Shown piece after piece: positions 3,026-24,765 of a stretch of 64,000 bases of DNA. The notes under the pieces were generated by a model, which saw only the letters and a program-made list of their open reading frames with translations, searched no databases and was not told where the DNA came from. Within the stretch, counting starts at the first letter, position 1. The number at the start of each line of letters is the position of its first letter. The translations under genes and the position numbers were made by a program. The DNA comes from Streptomyces sp. NBC_01775 (GTDB taxonomy: Bacteria; Actinomycetota; Actinomycetes; Streptomycetales; Streptomycetaceae): assembly GCF_035917675.1 (NCBI RefSeq), contig NZ_CP109104.1, positions 3,162,001 through 3,226,000 on the forward strand, read 5' to 3'.

Positions 3026-3975
3026 CCCGCCTGGGCCCCCGATCCGGTGCCGCGTCCGAAGGTGAAGATGTTCTGCCGTGCCTTCTGCCACGGTGTGGCC
3101 GGAAGCTGGCGGCTGGTGCCGCGCGCGTAGCGCCGCTCAAGGTAGTACTGGCCGATGCTGAAGACCGTGGTGATCGCCAGATACCAGATGGTGGCCACGA
3201 GCAGCAGCTCGACCACGGCGCTGGAGTTGTTGCCGATGTTCTGCGCCTTGCGCAGCACCTCTTCGTACATCACCACGGAACACAGCGAGGAGGTCTTCAG
3301 CAGGTTGATGAACTCGTTGCCGGTCGGCGGCACGATGACCCGCATGGCCTGCGGCAGGACGATACGGCGCATGTTCTGCGCCTGCGTCATGCCGAGCGCC
3401 TGGGACGCCTCGGTCTGGCCCTCGTCGACGGACTGGATGCCGGCGCGGCAGATCTCCGCCATGTAGGCGGCCTCGTTCAGGCCGAGGCCGAGGAGCGCCG
3501 CCATGAACGGGGTCATGACGTCGGTCATCTCGTCCTTGTAGATCGGCCCGAGATTGAGGATCGGGAAGATCAGGGCGAGGTTGAACCACAGCAGCAGCTG
3601 TACGTAGACCGGTGTGCCGCGGAAGAACCAGATGTAGCCCCAGGCGACCGTGGAGGTCACCGGGTTCTTCGACATGCGCATCACCGAAAGGATGATGCCG
3701 AGCACCAGGCCCATGAGCATGGACAGCACGCTGACCACGATCGTGTTCCGGACGCCCACGAGGATCTCGTCGTCGAAGAAGAAGTCGCCGACGGCCTTCC
3801 AGCGCAGATCGGCGCCGGCCACGGCGTTCACGAACAGCCCGAGCAGGGCGAGGACGATCACTGCGGCGACGTAGCGGCCATAGTGCCGCACGGGTATGGC
3901 CTTGATGGCCTCGGGTGCGCCGGACGACGGGCGGGGCGCGTCGTCGGCGGGCACCTTGTCGGTGGGTGTTTTCAC
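3022..3975 (-). CDS. polar amino acid ABC transporter, permease protein
   Basis: A 317-residue membrane protein of the His/Glu/Gln/Arg permease family. A cytoplasmic N-terminus is followed by a first hydrophobic segment ([20 protein letters not shown]), then several more. The EAA-loop signature that contacts the ATPase is seen as [20 protein letters not shown] followed by ASQALGMT. It lies between the binding-protein gene (41 bp gap) and the ATPase gene (ATGA overlap). One permease gene is present, so the channel is presumably a homodimer unless a partner is encoded elsewhere. Confidence 0.95.
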
Positions 3976-9723: not shown

Positions 9724-10809
9724 GTGCACAGGGTGTCGAACGCTTCCCGTGAGCATGGCCCTGACCGTGACGATGCGCTGCGCGCCTGGGTCCGCGCGGA
9801 CTTCTCCCTCGCCCTGACCGCGACCGAGCGCATCGGCCTCGGTGCGGACGCCGCGGCCGACGTATGGCACGCGGTGGGCGAGGACGGACTCAGATACGCG
9901 GTCAAGTGGAGCGGCGGCGGCGCCGGCGCGGCACTGCTGGTGCCCGCGCTGCTCGCCGAACGCGGCGTGCCCGGTGTCCCGGCCCCGCTGCCCACCCCCT
10001 CCGGCGCCCTGTGGAGCGAACGGCAGGGCCGCAGGCTGTCGGTGGTGCCATGGGTCTCGGACGAGGGAGCGCTGGACGCGGGCATGGCGGAGGACCAGTG
10101 GCGTGCCTACGGCACCATGCTGGCCCGTACGCACGCCACCGAGCCGGACCCGGAGGCAGCGGCGGCGCTGCCGCACGAGGACCACACACACGCCGTGGAG
10201 GCCGCACAAGTACGGGCCGTTCAACAAGCTTTGGGGGACGTCGCCAAGGGGCGCGTACCCGGTCCCGGGGACGCTCTCGTGACGGAGCTGGCGGAGCAGT
10301 GGTCCGCCGCCTCCGACACGGTCGCCGCGCTGCTGGCGGGCGCCGAGGAGCTGGGCGGACGGCTGCGGGGCCGCGCGCCCGCACCGGCCGTGCTGTGCCA
10401 CGGCGACCCGCACCTGGGCAACGTCCTGCTGCGCGAGGGCCTCCCCTGGCTGATCGACTGGGACGACGCCGTGCTGGCACCGCCGGAGCGCGACCTGCTG
10501 TTCGTACTCGGCGGAGTGCTGGCCTTCGCTCCCGTCCGCGAGCACGAACAGGCGTGGTTCTTCGAGGCGTACACCGCCGTCGGCGGCCCCGCGCACCCCG
10601 ACCCCGAACGCCTGGCCTACTACCGCTGCCGCAGAGCCCTGGAGGACCTGGCGGGGCCCGCGGCGGAGGTCCTCGACCCGAAGACACCCGAGCCCGAGCG
10701 CGCGGAAGCCCTCGCGCTCCTGCGCGGAATCCTCTCCCCCACCGGCCTGGCAGCCGCCGCCCTGGATTCCCTCACGAGGACGAACACCGCGAAGGGCGTG
10801 ACGTGGTAG
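9724..10809 (+). CDS. aminoglycoside phosphotransferase-fold (APH) protein
   Basis: A 361-residue kinase-like protein. The N-terminal lobe has a conserved lysine in YAVKW. The catalytic loop is LCHGDPHLGN near residues 224-233, and the metal-binding loop is LIDWDDAVLAPPERDL. The family includes antibiotic, choline, homoserine and fructosamine kinases, so substrate and any resistance role cannot be assigned. The GTG at 9724 starts the frame; another GTG three codons on (9733) is equally possible. The stop overlaps the next gene by 7 nt, so the two are probably co-translated. Confidence 0.8.
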   Translation: MHRVSNASREHGPDRDDALRAWVRADFSLALTATERIGLGADAAADVWHAVGEDGLRYAVKWSGGGAGAALLVPALLAERGVPGVPAPLPTPSGALWSERQGRRLSVVPWVSDEGALDAGMAEDQWRAYGTMLARTHATEPDPEAAAALPHEDHTHAVEAAQVRAVQQALGDVAKGRVPGPGDALVTELAEQWSAASDTVAALLAGAEELGGRLRGRAPAPAVLCHGDPHLGNVLLREGLPWLIDWDDAVLAPPERDLLFVLGGVLAFAPVREHEQAWFFEAYTAVGGPAHPDPERLAYYRCRRALEDLAGPAAEVLDPKTPEPERAEALALLRGILSPTGLAAAALDSLTRTNTAKGVTW

Positions 10810-18409: not shown

Positions 18410-19000
18410 ATGGCCACACCCATCACCGCGACCGCTTTCGTCCAGGCCCTCAAGAAGGAGGGCGTACGGATCGAAGAGGTACGCGACTGGCGCAACCACA
18501 ACCGCAACAAACAGGGGCCGTGGGGCCCGGTGCACGGGATCATGATCCACCACACCGCCACCGAGGGCTCCGCCGAGACGGTCGACCTGATCTACGACGG
18601 CCGCTCCGACCTGCCGGGCCCGCTCTCCCACGGCTGCGTCACCAAGGACGGCACCGTCCACCTGACCGGCCACGGCCGGGCCAACCACGCGGGCCTCGGC
18701 GACGACGACGTCCTGCGCGCCGTCATCGCCGAGCGGGCCACCCCGTCGCCGAACGAGCAGAACACCGACGGGAACAGGTACTTCTACGGATTCGAGTGCG
18801 AGAACCTCGGAAACGGCAAGGACCCCTGGCCCGAGGAACAGCTCGACGCGATCGAGCGGGCCGCCGCCGCGCTGTGCCGGCACCACGGCTGGAACGCACG
18901 GTCGGTCGTCGGCCACCTGGAGTGGACGAACCAGAAGGTCGATCCGCGCGGCTTCAGCATGGACGATCTGCGCGAGAGGATCGCCGAGCGCCTCAAGTGA
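18410..19000 (+). CDS. N-acetylmuramoyl-L-alanine amidase (amidase_2/PGRP fold)
   Basis: A 196-residue single-domain amidase. Zinc ligands are visible as His in IMIHHTATEG, and the distal pair in NHAGLG and VVGHLEWTNQKVDP; FECENLGNG supplies the family strand. It would cleave the amide between MurNAc and L-Ala of peptidoglycan. There is no signal peptide, so it resembles phage-type endolysins or a cytosolic recycling enzyme. The ATG at 18410 follows GGGGGCGAGG; an ATG at 18353 in frame is an alternative. It lies just left of the integrative element but outside it. Confidence 0.85.
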   Translation: MATPITATAFVQALKKEGVRIEEVRDWRNHNRNKQGPWGPVHGIMIHHTATEGSAETVDLIYDGRSDLPGPLSHGCVTKDGTVHLTGHGRANHAGLGDDDVLRAVIAERATPSPNEQNTDGNRYFYGFECENLGNGKDPWPEEQLDAIERAAAALCRHHGWNARSVVGHLEWTNQKVDPRGFSMDDLRERIAERLK

Positions 19001-19092
19001 GCGGGTGACCGTTCGCGCCCCGGTGCCCGCACCCACGTCCCGGCCGGGAGCCCCACCGGGCCCCGGCCGGGCACAGTGCCCACAATGGACGC

Positions 19093-19224
19093 ATGGTCCC
19101 CCAGCTCGAAGCCCTCGCCCCACGGCTTCCCTCCCCGCTCCAGGAAGTGCCGGCGGAGAGCTTCGCGCGCTCAGGCATACGTCTCCTGCTCAAGCGGGAT
19201 GACCTCATCCACCCCGCGCTCCCC
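19093..19224 (+). pseudogene. 5' remnant of the D-cysteine desulfhydrase/ACC deaminase-like target gene
   Basis: The first 43 codons (MVPQLEALAPRLPSPLQEVP, FARSGIRLLLKRDDLIHPAL) are the N-terminus of the pyridoxal-phosphate enzyme whose 3' part now lies at 23974-24765. After Pro44 the frame enters the element and runs on as unrelated residues. The PLP lysine is absent, so this piece cannot be active. CACAAT 6 nt before the ATG suggests a leaderless original promoter. Confidence 0.9.
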
Positions 19225-19245
19225 GAGTACAAGCCGACTGGTGAA
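19196..19245. other. attL, left attachment junction
   Basis: Host sequence (CATCCACCCCGCGCT) meets the element at the core CCCG (19222-19225). The element side has GTACA (19227-19231) and ACTGGT (19237-19242), which mirror TGTAC and ACCAGT at the right junction. Both pairs are equidistant (4 and 14 nt) from the central CC. Confidence 0.8.
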
Positions 19246-19273
19246 AACGGGAGGCGGATAGCCCAGCCTGTCC

Positions 19274-19286
19274 GTTGTACTTGGGG
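19274..19286. promoter_or_regulatory. inverted copy of the attP half-site before the integrase gene
   Basis: GTTGTACTTGGGG is the reverse complement, at 11 of 13 positions, of CCCCGAGTACAAG at attL (19221-19233). It lies 9 nt before the integrase ATG. Integrase bound here could repress its own gene. Confidence 0.4.
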
Positions 19287-19294
19287 AGGGGTGT

Positions 19295-20932
19295 ATGAGT
19301 CAGATGACCGACGCAAAGGAGCTGTGCGACCTTTACTTGCGGCGTAGCACGTTGCAGGACGACAAGACAACGTTGAAGGCCCATGAACGGGATCTCCGGG
19401 AACGGGCCAAGCGTGAAGGGCTGAAAGTCCGCAAGATCTGGCAGGAAGAGCTGTCGGCGTTCAAATCCGGCGTAGCGCGTGACGAATTCGACAAGGCGAT
19501 TGCCGCTGTCGTCGCCGGGGAGGTTGGTCACCTCCTGGTGTGGAAGCTCGACCGCTTGAGCCGTAAGGGCATGGGTCAAGTCGGCCAAGTCTTGGACCAG
19601 TTCGACTCCATGGGCGCGCGCCTGCTTGCGCACATGGATGGGCTGAACAGCAGCATTCCCCAGCACCGGGGCTTGTTCGCCTGGCTGGCGGAACAGGCGC
19701 GGGCGGAGTCGTACAACACCTCGGTCCGCACTCGGCGCACGAAGCGAGAGAAGAAAGCCACGGGAGCGTGGCCGGGTGGGCAGCCGCCGTACGGTCTCCG
19801 CGTCCGCAAGGGACAGAGGAAAGTCGAACGTCACCCGAAGGAATTCGAGCGTTCGCGCTTCATTGCGGAAGCTCTACTGGCTGGCAAACCGGCGACAGCG
19901 ATAGCGGCCGAAATGAACGAGCGAGGTTGGAAGACTCGACGCGGTCACCAATGGCGTTCGACCTCGCTCACGCAGCTCGCCCGCTCCCCCGCGTGGGCTG
20001 GCCTGATGCCCGAGTATGAGCGCTATAGCGACGGCAAGGGACGAGAGCGCTGCCGCCCAACCGGTGAACCGCTGAAAGGGCCTGACGGCAAGCCTGTCCG
20101 TGTCGGCGCAGCGGTCGTCACCGTGGGCGAGCGTGCACGCATCCTCGCCAATCTCCGCTCTCGTACGTCGGAATCCCTGGCGGCCGGGCGACGAGGCAAA
20201 CCAGCAGCACAGTCCCTCTTGGCCGGGCTGTTGAAGTGCGGGCGCTGCCAGGGGCCCATGTGCAAGGCGGGCCGTTCCTACCGGTGCTATCGCCGGGTCA
20301 ACCTCGGGAAGACGGCGTGCCGGGGGATGTCCGTGCTCTTGGAAGACATCGACCGGGTAGTTGAAGTGGCCTTTGTTAATCAGATCGGTCGGCTCACGTG
20401 GAAGGGAACCGTGTTCCGGGAGCTGGCCGCGCGTTGGCAGGCATACGAAGACCCAGAAACCGAGTCGCATCGTCTGGAGCTGGTAGCCGCTCGGGATGAA
20501 GCAAAGGCACGCCTGCGATCTCTGGAGAACGCCTGCTTCGTGCAAGGTCACTTCAAAGGCTCGGAGGGGCAGGAGAGGTACGAGCAACTACGAGAGGAGA
20601 TCTGCGGGCAGGTAGACACCATCATGAGTGAACTCTCCAAGGTGACGACGATTTCGGACTTCCTCTCAACGCGCGATCCTTTGGCGCTGCGGGAGGCTTG
20701 GCGGAAGTCCGGGAACTTGGAGCAAACTCGTGCCCTGCTGCAAATCGTGCTGTGCGACGTAACCCTTCTCCCTCCAGAAGGCACGGGGCCTCGTTCGCTC
20801 TTCAAGCTCTACCAACGGTGTTGCTTTCATTGGGCGGGTGAAAAGCCTCAGCCGTTGCGGGTCGATAGTTCGCGGATGGCTGACACCGCCTGGCCTGTCG
20901 AGTACCTGCCTGAGTACGCGCGAGCGGCCTAG
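19295..20932 (+). CDS. large serine recombinase (phage-type integrase)
   Basis: A 545-residue serine integrase. The N-terminal resolvase domain has the nucleophile Ser18 in YLRRSTL and DRLSRKG at 86-92. It is followed by a recombinase domain (GGQPPYGLRVRKG to LARSPAWAGLMPEYERY). A zinc ribbon near residue 315 shows CGRCQGPMC, then YRCYRR, LGKTAC. The coiled-coil region (LVAARDEAKARLRSLEN, LREEICGQVDTIMSEL) controls synapsis and directionality. It would recombine attP with attB through a 2-bp crossover, here read as CC. The ATG at 19295 follows GGGGAGGGG. Transcribed away from attL just inside the element. Confidence 0.95.
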   Translation: MSQMTDAKELCDLYLRRSTLQDDKTTLKAHERDLRERAKREGLKVRKIWQEELSAFKSGVARDEFDKAIAAVVAGEVGHLLVWKLDRLSRKGMGQVGQVLDQFDSMGARLLAHMDGLNSSIPQHRGLFAWLAEQARAESYNTSVRTRRTKREKKATGAWPGGQPPYGLRVRKGQRKVERHPKEFERSRFIAEALLAGKPATAIAAEMNERGWKTRRGHQWRSTSLTQLARSPAWAGLMPEYERYSDGKGRERCRPTGEPLKGPDGKPVRVGAAVVTVGERARILANLRSRTSESLAAGRRGKPAAQSLLAGLLKCGRCQGPMCKAGRSYRCYRRVNLGKTACRGMSVLLEDIDRVVEVAFVNQIGRLTWKGTVFRELAARWQAYEDPETESHRLELVAARDEAKARLRSLENACFVQGHFKGSEGQERYEQLREEICGQVDTIMSELSKVTTISDFLSTRDPLALREAWRKSGNLEQTRALLQIVLCDVTLLPPEGTGPRSLFKLYQRCCFHWAGEKPQPLRVDSSRMADTAWPVEYLPEYARAA

Positions 20933-20966
20933 CTTGAGTGCCTGATCGGGTAGCCAACAGCGCGGG

Positions 20967-21130
20967 CGGCGGCGGGAGGCTTTGGACGGTAGCTGCCATG
21001 GGGCGAGAGGTCAGGGGGCCTTACGCTCACCGCGAATCGGGCTGGCTCCTCGCCTGCCCGCAATAGCCCGATCGGCCCCCTGATCTTAGAGGCTCGCCCC
21101 ATGGGAGCTGTCTAAAGCCTCCCGCCGCCG
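20967..21130. repeat. 164-bp near-perfect inverted repeat
   Basis: The left arm begins CGGCGGCGGGAGGC (20967-20980) and the right arm ends GCCTCCCGCCGCCG (21117-21130). The arms continue with matching blocks including CCATGGGGCGAG/CTCGCCCCATGG and CAGGGGGCC/GGCCCCCTG, interrupted by a few mismatches and small bulges. The loop contains a further stem ATCGGGCT/AGCCCGAT. Arms are over 50 nt long. Possible roles are integrase terminator, origin-like structure, or remnant of a miniature transposable element. Confidence 0.85.
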
Positions 21131-21180
21131 TTCGCCCCAGCCATGCGCAGGCAGGCGCTACCGACGCCATCGGCAGAGCA

Positions 21181-21219
21181 TCGAGAAGGGGCCCGTAAGC
21201 GAACGGGGCCCCTTCTCGA
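21181..21219. terminator. strong hairpin downstream of the integrase region
   Basis: TCGAGAAGGGGCCC at 21181-21194 pairs perfectly (14 bp) with GGGCCCCTTCTCGA at 21206-21219, loop of 11 nt. It looks like an intrinsic terminator stem but has no T-run. Confidence 0.6.
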
Positions 21220-21358
21220 CGTCTCAGGGGTGCTGCGTGCGCCCGGGCGGCGGGCCGCCCGGACAGGACCGGCCGAAGGCCGCACGCCTGGCCGGGGCGG
21301 CAGTGAGCCGTTCCGGGCGGCGCGCCGAAGGCGCGCCTTGAACAAGTACAGAAAAGTT

Positions 21359-21373
21359 AGACCGATTCGGTCT
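21359..21373. promoter_or_regulatory. 15-bp palindrome in the element
   Basis: AGACCGA-T-TCGGTCT is a perfect 7+7 inverted repeat. It lies between the terminator-like hairpin and the DUF397 gene with no adjacent start codon, so its role as an operator is speculative. Confidence 0.35.
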
Positions 21374-21602
21374 CGGGCTCCCCCAGCGCCTCAGCGGCTG
21401 CTGTATCGGTGCTCGAGGGGGCGCCTGTGAAGCCGTGTAGGGGGCGACGCGTCTAGGGGTGGCAGAAGGGGCAGCCAACCACTGGGCGACACACCCAGCG
21501 CGTCCGGGCGGTCGGTCGGCCTCTGACTCAGACTCGGCTTCATGACGCAGAGCCGGGCCCCGCCTCCGGACGCGAAGAGACGGGGCCTGTGCGGTTGGGT
21601 CG

Positions 21603-21806
21603 TCACATACGGTCGAACTGACCGAGTGCCGTGCTCCGGATGAACGCCTGCCACTGGGGAGGCGAGAAGCTGAGGGTCGCTCGCTCTCGGTCCTTGGTGT
21701 CCCGTGCCGCTACCTCACTGCCGAGGAGAGCCACCTCTACGCAGTTTCCTTGCCCGTCGCTGCGGCTGGACTTGACCCAGGCCGTAGCCGTCTCACGCTC
21801 GCTCAT
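21603..21806 (-). CDS. DUF397 small protein
   Basis: A 67-residue DUF397 protein with the hallmark WVKSSRSDGQGNCVEVA followed by VAARDTKDRERATLSFSPPQWQAF. DUF397 genes almost always follow an XRE-family Scr1-like regulator in Streptomyces; some pairs behave like toxin/antitoxin or regulator/antagonist modules (family knowledge). Its ATG at 21806 lies inside the last codons of the upstream regulator (14-nt overlap), so the two are translationally coupled. Confidence 0.9.
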   Translation of the reverse strand: MSERETATAWVKSSRSDGQGNCVEVALLGSEVAARDTKDRERATLSFSPPQWQAFIRSTALGQFDRM

Positions 21807-22677
21807 GTCTCCCTGCCATTTCTGAGATCAGGGCCAGTGAGTCCTGATCGCTGCGTGCTGCCTGCCAGATGCCCGAGATCGCGTGCTCGTAGCTTTCGAT
21901 CTCGTGCGGCTTGTCGAGGTACAGGCTGCCGGTGTAGCCGTCCGTGTAGACAGTCGGGGGCTCGCCTGGTGCTCGGTCTCCGCTCGACGGGAACCGCAGA
22001 AGCATGAACGCCTTGGTCAACAGGCCCGCGTGCGCCCCGGCCGCATACGGCACAACCCTGATCGACACGTTCGGCATTTTGGATACGTAGACCAGATGCG
22101 CGAGCTGCCGTGCCATCACCTCATGTCCGCCTATGGGCCGGTGAAGCACTGCCTCAGCCAAAGCTACGTGCAGTTGGGGAGGCGTCGGCACCCGGCTGAG
22201 CAACGATTGGCGCTCGACCCTCAGCGTGACGCGTCGAGCGATCTCGGCTTCGGTCGCGTCGGGGTTGTGCAGCCGGATCAAAGTCTCGGCGTAGTCCTCG
22301 ACTTGCAGTAGCCCGGGGATCAGCTCTGCCTCGTACGTGAACAGCTCCGAGGCGGCTTCCTCCAGCCCGATGTAGACATCGAATCCCGCCGGGATGATGT
22401 CGCCGTAGCTGTGCCACCACCCCTTGGACTTCGACTCGCTGGCAAGCCCGACCAACGCGTGGGTCGTCTCCTCGGATGCCTTGTAGGTCCGGCACATCGC
22501 CTCGACGTCATGGCGCTTGAGCGGCGCCTTACCCGTCTCGATCCGCCAGACCGTGGTCTCGGACAGCTCCATGGCACGCCCGGCTGCCTTCTGGGTTAAC
22601 CCTGCCGCTTCGCGCAATTCCTTCAGATGCCGCCCTAGCTGGCGTCGGGGAACCGTCGATCCGCTCGCGTCTGCCAC
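21793..22677 (-). CDS. XRE-family regulator (Scr1/DUF5753 type) with a TTA codon
   Basis: A 294-residue regulator. The HTH at residues 14-70 reads LGRHLKELREAAGLTQKAAG, ELSETTVWRIETGKAPLKRHD. A DUF5753 domain (about residues 95-280) carries FTYEAELIPGLLQVEDYAETLIRLHN, ALAEAVLHRPIGG and TGSLYLDKPHEIESYEHAIS. Leu27 is encoded by TTA (22597-22599), so translation may depend on the developmental tRNA BldA. The start is ATG at 22677. The partner is DUF397. It could control the divergent three-gene operon through the paired inverted repeats upstream. Confidence 0.92.
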   Translation of the reverse strand: MADASGSTVPRRQLGRHLKELREAAGLTQKAAGRAMELSETTVWRIETGKAPLKRHDVEAMCRTYKASEETTHALVGLASESKSKGWWHSYGDIIPAGFDVYIGLEEAASELFTYEAELIPGLLQVEDYAETLIRLHNPDATEAEIARRVTLRVERQSLLSRVPTPPQLHVALAEAVLHRPIGGHEVMARQLAHLVYVSKMPNVSIRVVPYAAGAHAGLLTKAFMLLRFPSSGDRAPGEPPTVYTDGYTGSLYLDKPHEIESYEHAISGIWQAARSDQDSLALISEMAGRHERA

Positions 22678-22715
22678 TGCCTGTGCCTCCTCGCCTCAGT
22701 GTCTCTCCGTGGCGT

Positions 22716-22800
22716 CTTTCAAAGTGAAAGCGTCGGACTCTTCAACCTGAAGGCCGCCCAACAAATTTAAGCCTTCGGAGTGGGATTCCAACTTTGAAAG
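22716..22800. promoter_or_regulatory. paired inverted repeats in the divergent promoter region of the element
   Basis: CTTTCA-AAG-TGAAAG (22716-22730) is a perfect palindrome. CTTTCAAAGT within it recurs as its reverse complement ACTTTGAAAG at 22791-22800. The A+T-rich stretch between them (around CAACAAATTTAAG) stands out from the surroundings and likely holds promoter elements. These are good candidate operators for the adjacent XRE regulator. Confidence 0.55.
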
Positions 22801-22965
22801 CTTGCAGATTGACCCTCTCAGTCGACATCGTGGTTTCGCTACCACCAGCGCCCGAACTGCCGTGTAGCCACATGGCGTTGAGCCTTCGGCCGACAAACCG
22901 CGTGCTGGTGGTCATCCATCCCGTGCATGAGTTCGCGGGTTCAGTGCTGTTCATCGGGAGGCACC

Positions 22966-23202
22966 GTGGGTTGCCCATCAGACCTCGGCATCGGCTACCG
23001 GGTCGGCGTCGTCGTGGTTGACCGCCGCACGGGCACGCTCGGCCGTGTTGTCGACAGGGACGGCGGCGACCTGCTCTTACATCCCGTTGGCGGCGGCCGT
23101 GAATGGACGTGCCCGCCGAAGCACGCTGCGCTCGCTCAGTCTCAGGACACGTGCTGCCTCGGGGTGCCTCCGTCGCCCATGAGAGAGGAGCCCACGCCAT
23201 GA
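22966..23202 (+). CDS. small hypothetical protein, first gene of the element's mini-operon
   Basis: 78 residues from the GTG at 22966, which has GGGAGG 5 nt upstream. The sequence (VGCPSDLGIGYRVGVVVVDR, TGTLGRVVDRDGGDLLLHPVGGGREWTCPP) is predicted mostly beta. It resembles small proteins often found in Streptomyces next to XRE/DUF397 genes. Function is unknown. Its TGA overlaps the next ATG as ATGA. Confidence 0.7.
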   Translation: MGCPSDLGIGYRVGVVVVDRRTGTLGRVVDRDGGDLLLHPVGGGREWTCPPKHAALAQSQDTCCLGVPPSPMREEPTP

Positions 23203-23294
23203 ATGACCGGCCGTCTCAAGTGCTCTATGTCCTGGTGGTGGCCGTGCTGGCTGGCGTTCTGGTCTTCGCTGCCGTGCGAGGTGGGCGACAGTGA
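23199..23294 (+). CDS. 31-residue single-pass membrane peptide
   Basis: MNDRPSQVLYVLVVAVLAGV continuing to LVFAAVRGGRQ: a short polar N-terminus, one hydrophobic helix of about 19 residues (positions 8-26), and a positive C-terminus. AGAGGAG lies 8 nt before the ATG. It overlaps both neighbours by 4 nt, which supports it as a real gene despite its size. A toxin-like or accessory membrane peptide is possible; function unknown. Confidence 0.65.
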   Translation: MNDRPSQVLYVLVVAVLAGVLVFAAVRGGRQ

Positions 23295-23656
23295 CCAACC
23301 TGTTCATGGACTGTTCCGTGTTGTGCGTGCTGGGCGTGGCGGACCGCGATCGCGCCAGAGCGCTCTTCCCTGCTGTCGAAACTGGCGAACTCCAAGGGCC
23401 GCACTGGTGTGAGCTGGGCGGCGGTCACCAGACTCATCAATCGGCGCTGCACCTGTATGACGACAGCACCACCCTGTGGGTGACCTGGACGAGCACGGGT
23501 CACCGCCTGGTCGTGCTTCCCGATTGCCCCGTGCACGAGCCTGACCCGATGGGATCAGCCTGCATCCTCTCCCAGCGACATGAGGGGCCGCACTCGTGGG
23601 AGTTCCTTGACGACGCCACCCGTCTCCGGTTCTACGGCTTGGAGCTGCCTGGGTAG
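23291..23656 (+). CDS. small hypothetical protein, last gene of the element's mini-operon
   Basis: 121 residues from the GTG at 23291, which overlaps the preceding TGA as GTGA. Several His and Cys residues (HWCELGGGHQTHQSALHLYD, CPVHEPDP, RHEGPHSW) could bind metal, and the C-terminal pattern CILSQRHEGPHSWEF resembles short Cys/His actinobacterial and phage proteins. No family is recognised with confidence. Last cargo gene before the right end of the element. Confidence 0.65.
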   Translation: MTNLFMDCSVLCVLGVADRDRARALFPAVETGELQGPHWCELGGGHQTHQSALHLYDDSTTLWVTWTSTGHRLVVLPDCPVHEPDPMGSACILSQRHEGPHSWEFLDDATRLRFYGLELPG

Positions 23657-23676
23657 GGTCCTCCGCCCGCACGCTC

Positions 23677-23715
23677 AGCCCCGCCTACGCCTGCACTGCG
23701 CGCGTGGACGGGGCT
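23677..23715 (+). terminator. weak hairpin after the mini-operon
   Basis: AGCCCCG (23677-23683) pairs with CGGGGCT (23709-23715) around a 25-nt loop, followed by TCTTCC. It is placed between the third cargo gene and the promoter of the chimeric enzyme gene. Confidence 0.35.
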
Positions 23716-23787
23716 TCTTCCAGCTCTGGACACCTGTGAGCTGCACAAACACCCGAAAGCTTCCCAAGGACAAGCCACAATGGACGT

Positions 23788-24765
23788 GTGGACCACCCCG
23801 TAGATCTCGCCACCGCACTCCAGCCCCGCCCTCCCTCTCCGCTCCAAGAGGTCGAGGACGAGCGGTTCACCCGCCGAGGCGTACGCCTGCTGCTCAAGCG
23901 GGAAGACCTCATCCATACGACGCTGCCGCGATCGTGGGACATAGCTGCGCTTGGACCAGTGGAGCTGTACCCTCCCGGCAATAAGTGGCGCAAACTCGCC
24001 CCTAATCTGCGGGCCGTCGCCGCCTCGGAGCACCGTCGGCTGCTGACGTTCGGGGGCGCCTACTCCAACCATCTGCGGGCCACGGCGGCGGCCGGCAGGC
24101 TGCTGGGGCTGCGCACCGTCGGGGTGGTGCGCGGCCAGGAACTCGCCGACCGGCCGCTGAACGCGTCGCTGGCACAGTGCGCGGCGGACGGCATGCTGCT
24201 GCACTTCGTCTCCCGCGCCGACTACCGCCGCCGCACCGATCCGGAGTGGCACCGCGAGCTGCTCGACCGCTTCGGCCCGTGCGCGTTGATCCCGGAGGGA
24301 GGCAGCAACGCGGCGGCCGTACGCGGGTGCGTGCCGCTGGGCGAGGAGCTGCGCGGGCGCACGGACATCGCGGCCGTCGCCTGCGGGACCGGAGGCACCC
24401 TGGCGGGCATGGCGGCAGGCCTTTCCGCAGGTCAGCGGGCACTTGGCGTGGCAGTACTGAAGGGCGGCTTCCTGCCCGGGGAGGTGCGCCGGCTCCAGGC
24501 CGAGACCTTCGGCGAACCGCGCGGCGACTGGTCGGTGGAAGAGCGCTTCCACGGCGGCGGCTATGCGCGGACCGGCACGGAGCTGGCCGCCTTCGCGCGG
24601 GATTTTTCCGGGCGGCACGGGCTGCCGCCACTGGAACACATCTATGTCGCCAAGCTGCTGTACGCGCTCACACGGCTCGCCGAGGAGGGCACCTTCACCT
24701 CGGGCAGCACCGTGACGGCGGTCGTCACGGGGCAGGCGCACCCGTCAATCACTGACACAGAGTGA
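23788..24765 (+). CDS. chimeric D-cysteine desulfhydrase/ACC deaminase-like PLP enzyme
   Basis: A 325-residue pyridoxal-phosphate enzyme. Residues 1-62 are encoded by the element and residues 63-325 by the host. The element part repeats the family N-terminus (PPSPLQEVEDERFTRRGVRL, LLKREDLIHTTLP), followed by an extra 15-residue linker (RSWDIAALGPVELYP) that is the translated attP arm. The host part starts at P-GNKWRKLAPN, with the PLP Schiff-base lysine at 66, then FGGAYSNHLRATAAAG and the phosphate-binding ACGTGGTLAGMA. Members deaminate D-cysteine or 1-aminocyclopropane-1-carboxylate. Whether the linker is tolerated is unknown. The start is GTG at 23788, with an upstream region resembling that of the remnant at 19093. 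Confidence 0.85.
   Translation: MDHPVDLATALQPRPPSPLQEVEDERFTRRGVRLLLKREDLIHTTLPRSWDIAALGPVELYPPGNKWRKLAPNLRAVAASEHRRLLTFGGAYSNHLRATAAAGRLLGLRTVGVVRGQELADRPLNASLAQCAADGMLLHFVSRADYRRRTDPEWHRELLDRFGPCALIPEGGSNAAAVRGCVPLGEELRGRTDIAAVACGTGGTLAGMAAGLSAGQRALGVAVLKGGFLPGEVRRLQAETFGEPRGDWSVEERFHGGGYARTGTELAAFARDFSGRHGLPPLEHIYVAKLLYALTRLAEEGTFTSGSTVTAVVTGQAHPSITDTE
23950..24000. other. attR, right attachment junction
   Basis: The element side has ACCAGT (23955-23960) and TGTAC (23966-23970). The core CCCG is at 23974-23977, and host sequence GCAATAAGTGG follows. Joined with the attL arm, the sequence forms a symmetric dyad centred on CC, as expected for a serine-integrase attP. Confidence 0.8.

Follow-up and report, generated by a model that had tools for sequence, protein, structure and literature searches.

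A Streptomyces serine-integrase element that very likely rebuilds its split target gene and leaves part of its attachment site in the protein

What becomes of a protein-coding gene when a mobile element integrates near its 5' end, and what stays behind when that element decays? The question is raised by a 64,000-nt stretch of Streptomyces sp. NBC_01775 (hereafter the window; source genome G000, 9.34 Mb) in which a 4,752-bp element (positions 19224 to 23975) is inserted in codon 44 of a gene resembling those of D-cysteine desulfhydrase and 1-aminocyclopropane-1-carboxylate (ACC) deaminase. An original prediction made for this DNA held that the element rebuilds its target, and comparison with related loci supports that claim: a promoter-like region, an N-terminus and a linker derived from the element's own attachment site (attP) are all supplied by the element. 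We conclude that the element very likely rebuilds the split gene by means of a captured 5' part and one attP arm, and that deletion of element DNA can leave the resulting chimera behind as a scar.

The native gene begins with an ATG at 19093, continues for 43 full codons and is cut within codon 44 (CC/C), after which the frame reads into the element; its orphaned 5' part thus spans 19093 to 19223 on the plus strand, which is also the strand of the genes, start boxes and attachment-site parts below unless stated otherwise. A second start, a GTG at 23788, opens a frame of 325 codons that ends at 24765. This rebuilt gene consists of a captured 5' part (codons 1–43; 23788 to 23916), a linker (codons 44–63; 23917 to 23976) and the host 3' part encoding the bulk of a pyridoxal phosphate (PLP)-dependent enzyme (23976 to 24765), which lies in frame with the captured part. 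The element gives 62 codons plus two bases, hybrid codon 63 (again CC/C) is completed by the host, and the host sequence GNKWRKL follows, with Lys66 three residues past the hybrid codon; from homology to GNKxRKL, we take Lys66 to be the PLP lysine. The cut after codon 43 and the 62-codon replacement fused in frame at codon 63 agree with what had been predicted, and the new N-terminus is indeed diverged, the two 5' parts being 75% identical in DNA over 99 nt. The linker had been described as 15 attP-derived residues, and its origin in an attP arm stands (see below), as does, nearly, its length: relative to uninterrupted congeners, the insertion comprises 16 residues (spacing from LKRDD to GNK of 28 versus 12), and the linker-bearing genes that we read are 13 to 24 residues longer than the linkerless form. 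The target protein matches PF00291 (PALP), and its fold and resemblance fit the D-cysteine desulfhydrase/ACC deaminase family; all eight of its NCBIfam matches fall far below their cut-offs and give no equivalog-level assignment of a substrate.

The element boundaries follow from comparing the left and right junctions (attL and attR) with those of seven more occupied loci and with empty sites, and the exact crossover was fixed through genome G010, whose attL and attR have no more than two bases (TC) in common. In the window, the crossover points are 19223/19224 and 23975/23976, with the core dinucleotide CC at 19222 to 19223 in attL and at 23974 to 23975 in attR. Just inside attL lies the gene of a large serine integrase (19295 to 20932; 545 amino acids) with resolvase, recombinase and zinc ribbon domains (PF00239, PF07508 and PF13408), all exceeding Pfam gathering scores, which bears out the serine-integrase assignment of the original prediction. 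Its Ser18, near the N-terminus, is invariant in an alignment of 17 members of its clade and is presumably the catalytic serine.

Is this arrangement an accident of one genome? Among 61 genomes (our own and 60 others) searched for empty sites, 48 had a match to the target, and all 29 congener loci read in this set carry one uninterrupted gene lacking the linker; in G010, from the same set, the target is split by another element. Relatives of the integrase were found by protein search of whole genomes (a contig scan with the single integrase sequence gave none): among 392 genomes of the genus, 34 had a match at 1e-60, and in five of these the integrase lies in the target gene (G000, G088, G277, G010 and G081, with 62–74% identity in the best piece, the window itself excepted), the remaining matches being at about 37–44%. 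Three further occupied sites were found in S. corynorhini, in ADI96-02 (G419, the same locus as G124) and in G752, the last from a family sample in which 3 of 394 genomes had an integrase match at 1e-120. Searches for relatives around G418 and around G419 led to one identical set of 60 genomes without any gain. At all eight occupied sites, the same codon is broken and attL and attR share the same dinucleotide (CC in six, TC in G010 and AT in G277). The target is rebuilt at six of these eight dissected loci (window, G088, G081, S. corynorhini, ADI96-02 and G752), and no spare 5' part was found at the other two (G010 and G277). Several integrase genes are damaged, by a frame break with a stop in G081, a split in G010 and one TAG in G752, and only a remnant is left in ADI96-02. 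Chance is thus no serious option, given that all 29 congener loci are uninterrupted and linkerless and that the same fusion occurs in other genomes. The search of other Streptomyces and the comparison of occupied with empty sites that the original prediction had proposed therefore yielded insertions in the same codon and empty sites without linker. It had also considered that strains without the element might naturally carry two full gene copies here; instead, each of the 29 loci holds a single uninterrupted gene, and the source genome has one full copy of the target.

The linker itself is more widespread. It is present in at least 6 of the 392 genus genomes (G000, G088, G081, G124, G112 and G162), counting fetched loci only, and in 57 of the best 120 listed protein matches to residues 1–80 (1,106 passed the E-value), a listing enriched for linker-bearing proteins because the query itself carries the linker. 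Four linker proteins have a counterpart among the listed clade integrases whose longest contig is of equal length (P0005/P0134, P0009/P0136, P0056/P0125 and P0058/P0153), and linker protein P0026 is matched in this way by a shorter, diverged integrase (P0165); these pairs suggest that both proteins lie on the same contigs.

Does the element also bring a start region? An ACAATGG box lies just 5' of the native start (19082 to 19088), and another belongs to the captured start region (23777 to 23783). Of 72 uninterrupted genes, 61 have an exact ACAATG with an in-frame start codon 3–9 nt further on, as do 9 of 11 rebuilt genes and all eight attL copies, compared to 87 of 20,000 random stretches from the same loci; the two rebuilt genes without the exact motif carry AGAATG instead, and with one-letter variants allowed the counts rise to 65 uninterrupted, 11 rebuilt and 8 attL copies. 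The likeness between the two upstream regions that had been pointed out (CACAATGGACG) is therefore real. Further 5' of the box, there is little conservation among uninterrupted genes. Actinobacterial promoters provide the basis for reading such a box as a leaderless −10 element, and its position makes it the probable −10 region of a leaderless promoter.

Why, then, does the rebuilt protein carry additional residues? The last part of the linker (23950 to 23975) is the left attP arm, here read as protein, and this arm matches the right arm in attL (19224 to 19250) as an inverted repeat. In all eight elements, both arms carry ACTGGT, inverted and equally far from the core, with one arm of ADI96-02 having CTGGT. 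Across 30 nt, 14 to 23 positions match between the arms, and only 0 to 1.2% of shuffles of one arm (n = 20,000) reach the observed match, with the eight results not being independent tests since the arms of the rebuilding elements are related. Arm matching beyond ACTGGT reaches 10 of 11 positions in G277, 6 of 11 in G010 and 3–7 of 11 in the six rebuilders. G010 and G277 hold the motif in both arms without any fused 5' part, and the attP motif is therefore probably older than the protein insertion. We infer that the linker is an attP arm retained for recombination.

The G277 element is inverted, with its integrase-proximal arm joined to the host 3' part. Serine integrases have their direction of integration set by the central dinucleotide, and AT is the only palindromic one among the eight, so that the core of this element would permit insertion either way. 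In the direction found, rebuilding would be impossible, and no spare 5' part is detectable at either end of this element. That the elements of G010 and G277 live without a captured part might suggest that, where present, this part serves the element itself, as a promoter into the host flank or a regulatory leader, with restoration of the enzyme as a mere by-product. However, a use of the captured part as protein is not evident except when the element is integrated here, and this part is nonetheless in frame and conserved at the amino acid level, and we consider such an own use very unlikely.

What remains when the element is gone? Four genomes, Streptomyces sp. H27-S2, S. yangpuensis, G112 and G162, carry the linker in an uninterrupted gene without any element. 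A linker in uninterrupted relatives was a finding that the original prediction had named as speaking against it; taken literally it does occur, but alignments to element-bearing relatives point to scars rather than to an ancestral state, and we read these genes accordingly. For S. yangpuensis and H27-S2, alignment to G752 runs to just past the amidase gene that precedes the target and resumes about 7.1 kb further on inside the element. The breakpoints in G752 are nearly equal for both (3399–3417 and 10482–10489), and H27-S2 is without another ~650 bp. In both genomes, the rebuilt gene and the right end of the element are kept, while the native 5' part, attL and the integrase are gone; no integrase of the clade was found anywhere in the two genomes (H27-S2 has two others at 37–40%). 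G112 and G162 align to the left flank of the window and then again from near the start region to the rebuilt gene. The linkers of these two genomes vary at third codon positions as well as in length, which fits an older scar. In G162 (locus L208), the linker includes a Gly-Pro repeat (GGGCCG units) and makes the protein 24 residues longer than the linkerless form, so that what appears to be the former att arm now varies in length. Taken together, these alignments suggest that a linker without an element is the deletion scar of an eroded element.

The same four uninterrupted genes could be taken to mean that the linker-bearing gene is an old natural host allele into which the element inserts and from which the attP arm was copied. 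This would leave unexplained why the linker end holds inverted ACTGGT with the spacing from the core that is seen at the integrase end, why the motif is found in both arms of the G010 and G277 elements, which lack a fused 5' part, why H27-S2 and S. yangpuensis have an element's right end upstream of the gene, and why none of the 29 fetched congener loci has a linker. We therefore regard an old allele as highly improbable.

Some further loci touch on the history of the 5' parts. G218 (locus L216) has a linkerless target gene preceded by element-derived DNA that includes the end of an XRE/DUF5919-type gene; it may be an eroded element whose gene lost the linker, in which case linker loss would be possible as well. 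The linkerless P0050 and P0052 as well as G218 were considered as possible donors of the captured part; G218, however, also holds inner element DNA in addition to the right end of an element, and for this genome we prefer an eroded element. In G088, G081, S. corynorhini and ADI96-02, an XRE/DUF5919-type gene precedes the captured part and was considered as a captured chromosomal neighbour, but at locus L049 (G068), positions 2–385 are an 80% relative of part of this gene beside a different serine integrase (39% identical). The gene may be plain cargo that travels with several elements.

Is the chimeric gene maintained? The reading frame is open in all 12 linker-bearing genes read (948 to 1,101 bases). 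Ratios of nonsynonymous to synonymous substitution rates (dN/dS; method of Nei and Gojobori, NG86), calculated for 11 nonindependent pairs from these 12 genes, are 0.08–0.34 for the captured 5' part and 0.22–0.43 for the host 3' part, and purifying selection seems to act on both; values for the linker range from 0 to 1.09 and are not informative. An AlphaFold2 model of the rebuilt protein has a mean predicted local distance difference test score (pLDDT) of 88, with stretches below 50 only at residues 45–59 and 320–325. The predicted fold is that of D-cysteine desulfhydrase/ACC deaminase, and the linker is modeled as a loop of low confidence just N-terminal to the active-site lysine. Although this low-confidence loop would suit a nonfunctional chance fusion with a pseudogene as the rebuilt frame, this is very improbable in view of the frame being open in 12 linker-bearing genes, the low dN/dS of the captured part, the exact start box in 9 of 11 rebuilt genes and the recurrence of the arrangement across species.

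Several observations weigh against rebuilding by the element with scars left by deletion. The presence of the linker in four element-free genomes is one of them, and for G112 and G162 a horizontally acquired chimeric gene could also explain the data. The host 3' part has partly evolved without the element, so its low dN/dS alone is no proof that the chimera works, and some dN/dS pairs rest on very few changes. Over 99 nt, captured 5' parts share on average 78% DNA identity with each other (range 74–86) and 75% with the native 5' part of the same genome (range 67–86), compared to 73% among native parts; captured parts thus resemble one another little more than they resemble the native copies beside them. 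The captured part of G752 is even closest of all to its own native copy (86%): counted from the start box, the two differ at one of the first 75 nt and at four of the first 100, while 5' of the box only 18 of 50 nt match; this pattern points to recent exchange between the two copies. That captured coding sequence has cut back the left attP arm of the rebuilders would be deduced mainly from G277. Finally, in an integrase tree of 30 clade members (26 of the 31 database rows P0121–P0151, without P0130, P0131, P0132, P0148 and P0151, plus four from our loci), the non-rebuilders G010 and G277 both fall into one ten-row clade (support 100/100) that is nested (90/89) below an unresolved root, so that gain and loss of rebuilding are both possible.

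We nevertheless favor rebuilding by the element, which would proceed as follows. The integrase would recombine attP with the chromosomal site attB inside codon 44 of the target gene and thereby separate the native 5' part from the rest of the gene. To the left of its attP, the element carries the captured start region together with codons 1–43 of a homologous gene, joined in frame through the left arm, and recombination would yield a chimeric full-length gene. As this arm could not be removed without losing the recombination site, it would be translated within an insertion of 13–24 residues before the PLP lysine. If excised, the element would give back the gene in its original form, whereas erosion of the element by deletion would leave the chimeric gene and its loop as a scar. 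The sequences themselves show the junctions, the fusion and its recurrence, the attP motif in both arms, the endpoints of the deletions and the low dN/dS. Beyond this, the course of events supposes that the integrase recombines these sites, that it needs the arm, that the captured start region acts as a promoter, that the chimeric enzyme is active and that selection for keeping the target is the cause of the arrangement.

The integrase belongs to a clade (54% identity or more) that is set apart from its next database relatives at ~40% over most of the query. These ~40% Streptomyces recombinases and the integrase of Streptomyces phage Rowa are part of the same large serine recombinase family, and the clade described here is separate from them. 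Among 306 phage records, all integrase matches were below 60%, the best among the matches listed being that of Rowa with 33.5%; the matches listed from 49 plasmid records were at 20–26%, and six loci of IMG/VR were at 34–35%. A phage or plasmid carrier of the clade thus finds no support in the collections searched. The source genome encodes a second large serine recombinase outside the window (G000:C1:2149146-2150663) that is 40% identical to the element integrase.

To the left of the target, the host gene of an N-acetylmuramoyl-L-alanine amidase (Amidase_2; 18410 to 19000; PF01510, E 1e-22) marks the flank and is found 5' of the target in empty and occupied relatives wherever enough flank was read. 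Downstream of the integrase gene, a stretch of ~400 bp without assigned genes (20961 to 21366) is conserved in seven of the eight elements compared by blastn, matching six of seven others at ~72–81% (the exception is G752; in G010 the match is in pieces). It could be a cis-acting site. By eye, we spotted a long imperfect inverted repeat around 21000–21110; 65 bp of the stretch occur again elsewhere in the genome (82%), and an Rfam scan of 20900–23800 gave zero matches up to E 0.1. The cargo comprises a DUF397 protein (21603 to 21806, minus strand; PF04149), an HTH_31/DUF5753 regulator (21793 to 22677, minus strand; PF13560 and PF19054, with an NCBIfam Sco1979-family match below cut-off) and an open reading frame (ORF) of 121 amino acids without Pfam or NCBIfam match (23291 to 23656). 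A Pfam search of four ORFs of the element (integrase, DUF397, DUF5753 and the 121-amino-acid ORF) brought up no transfer, replication or virion gene.

How does this element compare to known systems? The integrase of the Vibrio element IMEVchUSA3 is a tyrosine recombinase, and SXT is a conjugative element with a tyrosine integrase, whereas the window element uses a serine recombinase. IMEVchUSA3 is reported to insert in the 5' end of the housekeeping gene dusA, which gains a new promoter and a diverged in-frame N-terminus of identical length (61% identity over 35 residues), with expression demonstrated by a lacZ fusion (PMC8409611). SXT, an integrative and conjugative element (ICE) in prfC, is cited there as a similar case of 5' rebuilding (PMC8409611, PMC3715440). 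IMEVchUSA3 and the window element both bring an in-frame diverged N-terminus, that of the window element lying at attR and preceded by a putative promoter; the dusA N-terminus retains its length and has no att-derived insertion, while the window gene gains 16 residues and its family 13–24. Single-serine-integrase ICEs of Streptococcus in rumA are described as having short direct repeats and changed coding ends, with rumA and the integrase gene exchanging their 3' parts under a change of frame (PMC4701971). Like the window element they thus place a serine integrase in a protein-coding gene, and unlike it they exchange 3' ends. The same text states that all insertions of 29 streptococcal serine-integrase ICEs disrupt genes (PMC4701971), and a review describes serine-recombinase integrative and mobilizable elements as disrupting dispensable genes. 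In the open-licence literature, our searches listed neither a case of 5' rebuilding by a serine-integrase element nor a Streptomyces target of the ACC-deaminase-like kind. The original prediction had called such rebuilding unusual for a serine-integrase element: 5' rebuilding in itself is known from dusA and SXT/prfC, and it is the serine case that we did not find elsewhere. What is new compared to the known 5' rebuilders is the serine integrase, the translated attP arm and the lasting scars.

For Streptomyces, a damaging insertion would thus be made tolerable by a mobile element that carries a spare front end of its target, and rebuilding with a serine integrase would force the recombination site itself into the protein. 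We think it rather likely that this site has become part of the enzyme and that gain, erosion and loss of elements keep adding, and once apparently removing, a loop at the border of the active site across the genus. If so, scars would turn a transient parasite into lasting enzyme variation, and attachment sites of mobile elements would repeatedly give rise to insertions in proteins. With sites that are occupied, inverted, eroded or empty, a single genus would offer a natural test system for why integrases choose protein-coding targets, and the integrase with its att sites is a candidate pair for use in Streptomyces.

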